This document shows, piece after piece, positions 12,375 through 12,850 of a DNA stretch of 24,297 nucleotides. Source of the stretch: a virus; the IMG/VR virus record IMGVR_UViG_3300025889_000919, positions 1 to 24,297 of that record. One strand, given 5' to 3'. Both the position numbers and the translations under genes were made by a program. Below the pieces are notes generated by a model. That model was not told the DNA's origin and ran no database searches. It saw nothing but the letters and a program-made list of their open reading frames with translations. Each line of letters starts with the position of its first letter. Positions within the stretch are counted from its first letter, which is position 1.

Positions 12375-12764
12375 TTATTTAATATTTACTTTTGTACCTT
12401 TAACTTCTTCAGGTTCTTTAAAACCTAATTTAATTGTAAGTACACCATCTTTCATTTCAGCTTCATCAACAAGTACATCATTTCTTAATGAAAATTGTTT
12501 GTAAAACTTTTTATAAGATAGTCCTTTTGTAATATATTCTTTCTCAGAATCATCAACTTGACCTGATACAGTTAATATTCCATCTTTTACTTCAACAGAA
12601 ATATTTTTTTTATTGTATCCTGCTAGTCCTAATTCCATTCCATATTTACCTTTGCCATACTTCACAACATTGTAAAAAGGGAAAGAATGTATTTTAGTTA
12701 GATTATTGAAGACATGATCAAACGTGTCATCAAAAAAGTTATTCATTAAACCAAGTGCTGTCAT
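12375..12764 (-). CDS. hsp20: Hsp20-family small heat-shock protein
   Basis: 129 residues. The alpha-crystallin domain spans about 35-120, with hallmarks GLAGYNKKNISVEVKDGILTVSG (read in two parts, about 46-68) and GVLTIKLG near the end. A V-x-I tail (KVNIK) resembles the family's I-x-I oligomerisation motif. It is an ATP-independent holdase chaperone that keeps unfolded proteins soluble, here presumably phage or host proteins during infection or virion assembly. The ATG at 12764 has a perfect AAGGAGG. Upstream lies a promoter that fits a heat-shock sigma factor. It is convergent with the SNF2-like gene at zero distance. Confidence 0.95.
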   Translation of the reverse strand: MTALGLMNNFFDDTFDHVFNNLTKIHSFPFYNVVKYGKGKYGMELGLAGYNKKNISVEVKDGILTVSGQVDDSEKEYITKGLSYKKFYKQFSLRNDVLVDEAEMKDGVLTIKLGFKEPEEVKGTKVNIK

Positions 12765-12820
12765 ATTATCCTCCTTATTTAAGCAAGTTTAATAGGCCAC
12801 ATTACTGTGCACCTGCAATA

Positions 12821-12850
12821 AATATAGGGGGTACCCAAGGTCACGTCAAG
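12821..12850 (-). promoter_or_regulatory. Heat-shock (RpoH)-like promoter of hsp20
   Basis: On the minus strand CTTGACG (12850-12844) is followed by CCCCTATATT (12830-12821). Read as sigma70 it is TTGACG-N17-TATATT, itself good. Read as sigma32/RpoH it has the CTTG -35 and the C-rich CCCC-TAT-N-T -10 with a suitable spacer. Transcription would start near 12814, with about 50 bases of leader. The spacer contains the palindrome GGGTACCC (12829-12836). Confidence 0.6.

Follow-up and report, generated by a model that had tools for sequence, protein, structure and literature searches.

The question raised by this locus is which element governs a viral small heat-shock gene: the promoter in front of it, or the leader of its transcript. 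The window, that is, the whole 24,297-nt stretch of DNA analyzed, is a 24.3-kb virus record (IMGVR_UViG_3300025889_000919) whose phage is nearest to Pelagibacter phage HTVC023P. The DNA polymerase A proteins of the two phages are 72% identical over the full length, and their DNA is 66% identical over part of the adjoining genes; judged by these genes, the window phage is an HTVC023P-like pelagiphage of the SAR11 type. A sequence-only reading had placed a phage hsp20 gene behind a promoter fitted to the host heat-shock sigma factor, RpoH (sigma32). The gene is indeed there: its product matches the Pfam HSP20 family with 51 bits (E = 1.6e-13, cut-off 20.8). We consider it likely (roughly 0.7) that a ROSE-like RNA thermometer, short and made of two hairpins, forms the 5' end of the hsp20 transcript, and that the promoter is a separate, exchangeable module; with this reading the focus shifts, in that the leader, and not only the promoter, is the important element. 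The coordinates are collected in Table 1.

Table 1. Features of the hsp20 locus in the window and the basis of each assignment (SD, Shine-Dalgarno sequence).
Feature	Start	End	Strand	Basis
hsp20 gene, 129 aa, ATG start	12375	12764	-	ORF list; Pfam HSP20
Whole leader	12762	12818	-	Covariance model R1, 73.4 bits, sole match in the window
SD, AGGAGG	12770	12775	-	Sequence
Hairpin II: CUUGCUU pairs with AAGGAG, sequestering the SD, one G unpaired	12771	12787	-	Fold; UYGCU..AGGA in 61/61 distinct window-type leaders
UUGCU anti-SD motif, hallmark of ROSE elements	12782	12786	-	Fold; invariant alignment columns; motif as defined in PMC3669281
Hairpin I: AGGU-[bulged G]-CACA-loop GUAA-UGUG-GCCU	12794	12814	-	Fold; covariation; bulged G in 60/61 distinct window-type leaders
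Expected transcription start, 6-9 nt past the -10, at the foot of hairpin I	12812	12815	-	Inferred from the -10 position
Promoter-like site, sigma70-type: CTTGACG (12850-12844), C-run (12831-12827), TATATT as -10 (12826-12821); RpoH use putative	12821	12850	-	Sequence; pattern and matrix scoring
Conserved block, TCCTGAGAGCCTCATATTTTAACGAAACGAC, adjoining the promoter on its upstream side and belonging to a portable promoter cassette	12851	12881	-	Recurs, little changed, upstream of hsp20 in other phages and of a 35-aa ORF in L083, L096 and L453

On the minus strand, the promoter-like site reads CTTGACGTGACCTTGGGTACCCCCTATATT from 12850 to 12821, or CTTGACG...CCCCCTATATT, and lies 56 nt upstream of hsp20. 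The bases and the spacing that had been described as RpoH-like are present, but their fit to RpoH is not above chance. For the E. coli sigma32 consensus (CTTGAA-N13-18-CNCCATAT), to which the site conforms at 11 of 13 positions, the window holds five distinct sites with at least 11/13 matches, versus a mean of 4.6 in 30 shuffled versions. With a matrix derived from 60 distinct SAR11 hsp20 and groES promoters, the site scored 8.0 in the spacer-tolerant form (rank 10 of 48,532 positions), below all 60 host sites, the lowest of which scored 10.0; in the gap-free form, it scored 0.2 (rank 108). A sigma32 promoter better than chance was thus obtained in neither the E. coli nor the SAR11 form, RpoH control was downgraded as the main explanation on these scores and counts, and the window promoter is, as far as its sequence goes, not assignable to RpoH. 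The complete C-rich string is not due to chance: CTTGAC-N10-GTACCCCCTATAT, with up to three mismatches, occurs once in the window versus a mean of 0.01 in shuffles. Another stretch, at 393-421 on the plus strand (CTTGACATAAAACCGTTAATCGCTATAT), is among the best window matches to the SAR11 heat-shock matrix and has no evident gene role.

We lean slightly towards an ordinary sigma70 promoter firing early in infection, in which the C-run would be part of a phage-lineage cassette or a putative site for another regulator. The site agrees with the sigma70 consensus (TTGACA-N17-TATAAT-like) at 10 of 12 positions, with a 17-nt spacer, and is identical to CTTGAC-N17-CTATAT, which we take to be the sigma70 consensus of S. 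meliloti. The site had been described earlier, from the sequence, as a fair sigma70 promoter, but the region contains 16 sigma70-type matches versus 18.1 in shuffles. Sigma70 use of the window promoter would seem at least as likely as RpoH use. It should be noted that sigma70 and RpoH sites are reported to overlap heavily in alphaproteobacteria, with 298 S. meliloti promoters assigned to both (PMC3616915), and this overlap also counts against a reading in terms of RpoH.

The heat-shock promoters of the hosts bear directly on this choice. The hsp20 and groES promoters of SAR11 have the form CTTGAAA-N16-C(A/T)TAT. Taken as a fixed pattern, this form yielded 19 sites in eight SAR11 genomes, versus seven matches when the pattern was read backwards; 11 of the 19 lead hsp20 (6), groES (3) or lon (2), the genes being named from their translations. 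An rpoH gene above the curated family cut-off is present in 19 of 21 SAR11 genomes, and a host heat-shock regulon in SAR11 looks real, judged by these patterns. The pattern CTTGA-N11-17-CCCCATAT was rejected as too strict for SAR11; it was found in 11 of 99 genomes, with few occurrences before heat-shock genes (one before hsp20). Sites of the form CTTGAAA-N-CATAT at five SAR11 loci (L423, L426, L430, L434 and L436) precede lon and apparent genes for a response regulator, a BAX-inhibitor-like protein and a superoxide dismutase, and may represent a small RpoH regulon.

If host RpoH read the window promoter, the heat-shock response of the host would raise hsp20 transcription. The register of the SAR11 hsp20 and groES promoters is preserved in the window site (C at position 24, then TATAT), CTATAT occurs also at host groES, and SAR11, which has rpoH, is described as having only two sigma factors (PMC13198564). 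However, CTTGAC was found in 0 of 63 host promoters, versus CTTGAA in 47 of 63 (nine hsp20 loci yielded no site under the picking rule). The orthologous phage loci point in both directions. Of 80 homologous loci from IMG/VR, five were set aside because their upstream DNA was too short; the C-rich form is present in 17 of the other 75, a site of the C/ATTGAA type in 43, and neither in 15. Two relatives, L027 and L062, carry CCCCCCATAT at the promoter, and many orthologues have CTTGAAA in the same register as the window site; these sites speak for RpoH, whereas the C-rich form is found in only 17 of the 75. We regard control by RpoH as unlikely.

The exact C-rich element was found in 21 other viral contigs, where it is followed by hsp20 in 17, by a 35-aa ORF in two and by other genes in two. 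A search for the upstream block produced 63 contigs; among the 35 of these that were listed, there are hsp20 loci, five loci with the 35-aa ORF and, for the remainder, apparent chance matches, and some of the listed elements differ by a base or two. The five loci (L083, L096, L453, L460 and L478) have the cassette, with some base changes, in front of this unrelated ORF; therefore, the cassette is portable and not bound to hsp20, which is in line with sigma70 use. The 35-aa ORF (MFPTYAQVKEFW...) may be phasin-like; it had no match in a Pfam scan, and none in a SAR11 search that was run without a positive control. At the same five loci, it has a small hairpin leader of its own, without the ROSE motif.

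The leader between promoter and gene contains two hairpins, the second of which includes the ribosome-binding site (Table 1). Covariation was analyzed in 47 of 57 distinct leaders, near-copies being omitted by eye. In the two-hairpin structure, 96.3% of the cells are paired versus 85.4% in shuffled controls, and versions of the structure slid along the alignment reach at most 73.7%; there are 66 double-change cells versus 20.4 in shuffles, and none of 500 shuffles attained either the pairing or the double-change value. The double changes are confined to hairpin I, hairpin II being nearly invariant and, on its own, of little evidential value. Hairpin II is too conserved to covary; therefore, its pairing rests on sequence identity, on a compensatory swap in HTVC103P (the SD variant GGAU is matched by A replacing C, giving A-U for C-G) and on U-to-C changes that pair with G. 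When arms were swapped between leaders, the pairing decreased from 97.0% (own arms) to 73.5% (swapped) in window-type phages, from 99.1% to 83.8% in SAR11 hosts and from 100% to 84.5% in cyanophages; the observed value was reached by 0 of 1000 permutations in the first two sets and by 1 of 1000 in the third. RNAalifold alone predicted hairpin I and not hairpin II, and the window leader taken alone is no more stable than shuffles (z = -0.46).

The motif UYGCU followed by AGGA is present in 61/61 distinct window-type leaders, 32/32 SAR11 hsp20 leaders, 61/61 cyanophage leaders and 5/10 pelagimyophage leaders, versus 0/30 groES leaders; the chance expectation is approximately 2-4%. A covariance model built from window-type phages only (R1) matched all 36 SAR11 hsp20 loci at E <= 1 (E from 9e-7 to 0.31; 30 at E <= 0.01) and none of 34 control loci (30 groES and four 16S). 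It should be noted that several SAR11 matches skip hairpin I as a local end, so that most of their score comes from hairpin II and the ribosome site. Three of the 36 SAR11 loci (L262, L263 and L266) could not be parsed, yet R1 matches them. R1 was also run on 40 of the other phage hsp20 loci, and 26 matched, many of them T4-like, with 13 at E of 0.05 or better. The window and 79 loci, together 595 kb and largely of phage origin, were scanned as well; 76 sources were matched once each, always at an hsp20 leader, and the four sources without a match are the four pattern-search loci that have no hsp20 behind the C-rich element; since most of these sequences were used to build R1, what is informative is that nothing else matched. 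A DNA search of a phage collection left the leader region unmatched. The leader is carried by the isolated phages HTVC008M, Mosig, HTVC115P, HTVC103P, Melnitz-3, C48C1 and S-SM2, and T4-like cyanophages, pelagimyophages and an OM43 phage have an hsp20 leader of this layout.

The proteins encoded behind these leaders are deeply diverged. A tree of 71 Hsp20 proteins places the window-type phages in a single clade (100/99) that is distant from both the SAR11 hosts (32 rows) and the T4-like phages; the pelagimyophage proteins cluster with the SAR11 hosts, and the cyanophage proteins form another long branch. The deep order of this tree is unsafe because of the long branches. Since the Hsp20 clades are distant and yet have the same leader, the leader either predates their splits or has travelled with the gene. 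In addition, TATAAATA, which we take to be a T4-late -10 element, lies upstream of the leader in cyanophages (32 of 61 distinct leaders) and in pelagimyophages (2 of 10); therefore, the leader occurs under different promoters. In these sequence comparisons, the leader persists while the promoters vary.

We estimated the opening of the SD with a fold model; the values are nearest-neighbor estimates in which non-canonical pairs, thought to be important in ROSE elements, are untreated. Between 15 and 45 °C, the predicted open fraction of the SD in the window leader rises from 0.11 to 0.28. Samples of 30 leaders were drawn for each set (10 for pelagimyophages). Window-type leaders have a median of 0.07 at 10 °C, where shuffling of the upstream part gives 0.34, and reach 0.25 at 40 °C. 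Over the same 10-40 °C range, the values are 0.09 to 0.21 for pelagimyophages (shuffled 0.34), 0.13 to 0.16 for cyanophages, that is, almost no opening (shuffled 0.37), and 0.36 to 0.40 for the groES controls (shuffled 0.36). In the SAR11 hsp20 leaders, the model gave no SD masking beyond that of shuffles (0.37 to 0.41 versus 0.42).

Among the thermoregulator families of Rfam, ROSE_3 is the one that aligns to the leader, with scores below its cut-off of 43 bits in five phages: Melnitz-3 (34.1 bits, E = 0.0013), C48C1 (26.8), S-SM2 (24.9), L414 (20.2) and that of the window (15.1, at 12759-12809). The gathering score was reached by none of the leaders tested, and 16 whole loci gave no match at that score. 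As a yardstick, the leader of E. coli ibpA, a true ROSE element, scores 100.4 bits with ROSE_2 and 20.8 with ROSE_3; R1 does not match it. Since E. coli ibpA itself obtains only 20.8 with ROSE_3, a sub-threshold score excludes the named Rfam subfamily and not the ROSE class. Short ROSE-like elements are described as having two hairpins with U(U/C)GCU opposite the SD (PMC3669281; PMC11182007). The leader studied here precedes a small heat-shock gene as part of its 5' UTR, has U(U/C)GCU opposite the SD and falls within the range of two to four hairpins, the last of which includes the SD with imperfect pairing and a bulged or mispaired G (in a hairpin II that is conserved rather than covarying). 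By sequence, the leader is thus like a ROSE element in all these features, while by score it would be placed outside every named Rfam ROSE family.

The closest comparison is with the probed ROSE-like elements of Pseudomonas ibpA (PMC3669281), which also precede a small heat-shock gene, have only two hairpins with a stable 5' hairpin I, and pair the SD with U(U/C)GCU in hairpin II. A sigma32-type promoter is described upstream of Pseudomonas ibpA in the same source, whereas the window promoter is not clearly sigma32. Other differences are that the gene studied here is viral, from AT-rich marine phages, with a conserved bulged G in hairpin I, and that its melting is predicted by a model. The members of RF01832 (ROSE_2) and RF02523 (ROSE_3) occupy the same place before small heat-shock genes with the same core motif, and ROSE_3 aligns to the leader, but the phage leaders score 15-34 bits versus the cut-off of 43. 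The SAR11 host hsp20 leader shares the two hairpins, the bulged G in hairpin I and UYGCU facing AGGA (32/32 distinct); it differs in hairpin I, whose lower stem is longer and whose upper stem has 2 bp, in its CTTGAAA-N16-C(A/T)TAT promoter and in an Hsp20 from a separate, distant clade. Known phage RNA thermometers include those of lambda cIII, SPbeta blyA and a Caudoviricetes sigma70 gene (PMC11182007), which, as the leader is predicted to do, place phage genes under temperature-sensing leaders. According to that source, the blyA and sigma70 thermometers are fourU-type hairpins found by one descriptor; as far as these three are described there, none is ROSE-like and none precedes hsp20. Searches of open-licence PMC papers listed none that was recognized as describing a ROSE element in a phage; those on cyanophage small heat-shock proteins do not mention a UTR or thermometer, and the one on SAR11 structured RNAs does not mention heat shock.

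In the mechanism that we propose, hairpin I would be a stable bulged-G stem at the 5' end of the transcript, and hairpin II would mask the SD by imperfect pairing of AAGGAG with CUUGCUU, which leaves one G unpaired. Ribosomes would be excluded at low temperature; upon warming, hairpin II would loosen and the chaperone would be made. The window promoter, with its C-rich -10, would be compatible with sigma70 and might also be read by host RpoH, and this module would have been swapped in relatives for CTTGAA-type sites or, in T4-like phages, often for T4-late promoters. Under the model, the phage might benefit from such a temperature response. The notion that a phage chaperone is wired to host stress is partly supported: SAR11 has rpoH, the host register is matched and, above all, the ROSE-like leader, which the sequence-only reading did not report, is shared with host hsp20, whereas CTTGAC, the low matrix score, the minority of orthologues with the C-rich form and the cassette before the 35-aa ORF weigh against wiring through the promoter.

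The same leader could, in principle, be unregulated and have been inherited from a common ancestor simply as a 5' hairpin that stabilizes the mRNA together with a strong ribosome site. Hairpins of this kind can protect an mRNA, as was suggested for hairpin I of Pseudomonas ibpA (PMC3669281), and the stability of the window leader is unremarkable. However, a conserved anti-SD sequence is not expected at a strong ribosome site, and UYGCU facing the SD is invariant across phages with deeply diverged Hsp20 proteins while absent from groES of the same hosts; this alternative is, in our view, improbable.

A further alternative is that translation is blocked by free Hsp20, of the virus or of the host, bound to the 5' UTR until aggregated protein titrates it away, so that protein overload would be sensed more than temperature. 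E. coli IbpA is reported to repress its own translation via its own 5' UTR, with Arg93 being essential (PMC10474464), and such autoregulation would account for the conservation of hairpin I. The equivalent position has Arg in 58/62 distinct proteins of the window-type and podo-labelled phages (the label 'podo' in the Hsp20 trees covers window-type phages, HTVC115P and HTVC103P), 7/8 of myophages, 10/10 of cyanophages and 30/30 of SAR11, but the window Hsp20 and two near copies (L003 and L004) have Lys, a substitution with which the E. coli protein loses this function. The Arg associated with IbpA-type control is therefore lacking in the window protein, and Arg may be kept elsewhere for other reasons. 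We treat autoregulation as a tentative possibility; it is also compatible with a thermometer, and perhaps operates alongside it, as both controls may coexist.

The thermometer reading can be extended beyond the window. We find it reasonably probable that the conserved control of hsp20 in marine phages, including several kinds of SAR11 phages, an OM43 phage and T4-like cyanophages with hsp20 as a core gene, lies in a ROSE-type thermometer and not in the promoter, and that the thermometer has persisted through swaps between host-like and T4-late promoters; translation of the viral chaperone would then respond to temperature or protein stress in the infected cell via the RNA device that the host also uses for its own gene. 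If so, one of the commonest viral chaperones in the sea would be under this control. Few phage RNA thermometers have been reported, with three being named in PMC11182007. If the leader works as predicted, phage and host would use the same post-transcriptional heat switch, and sea temperature would be linked, in a testable manner, to the supply of viral chaperone in phages that infect SAR11 or marine Synechococcus and Prochlorococcus.

Several leaders depart from the common layout. The anti-SD motif is UCGCU in L231 (HTVC115P) and L235 (HTVC103P). In L008, the leader before hsp20 has a near copy of the anti-SD hairpin (GGTTGCTTAACCAAGGACC) in place of hairpin I. Five pelagimyophages (L323, L324, L325, L328 and L330) keep hairpin I, and ACTGTCTAAACAAGGAGG or a close variant replaces the UYGCU hairpin. 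In the phage S-T4 (L236, MH412654.1), a ROSE-like leader and an ATG lie approximately 75 nt upstream of the annotated hsp20 start, which seems to be placed too far downstream.
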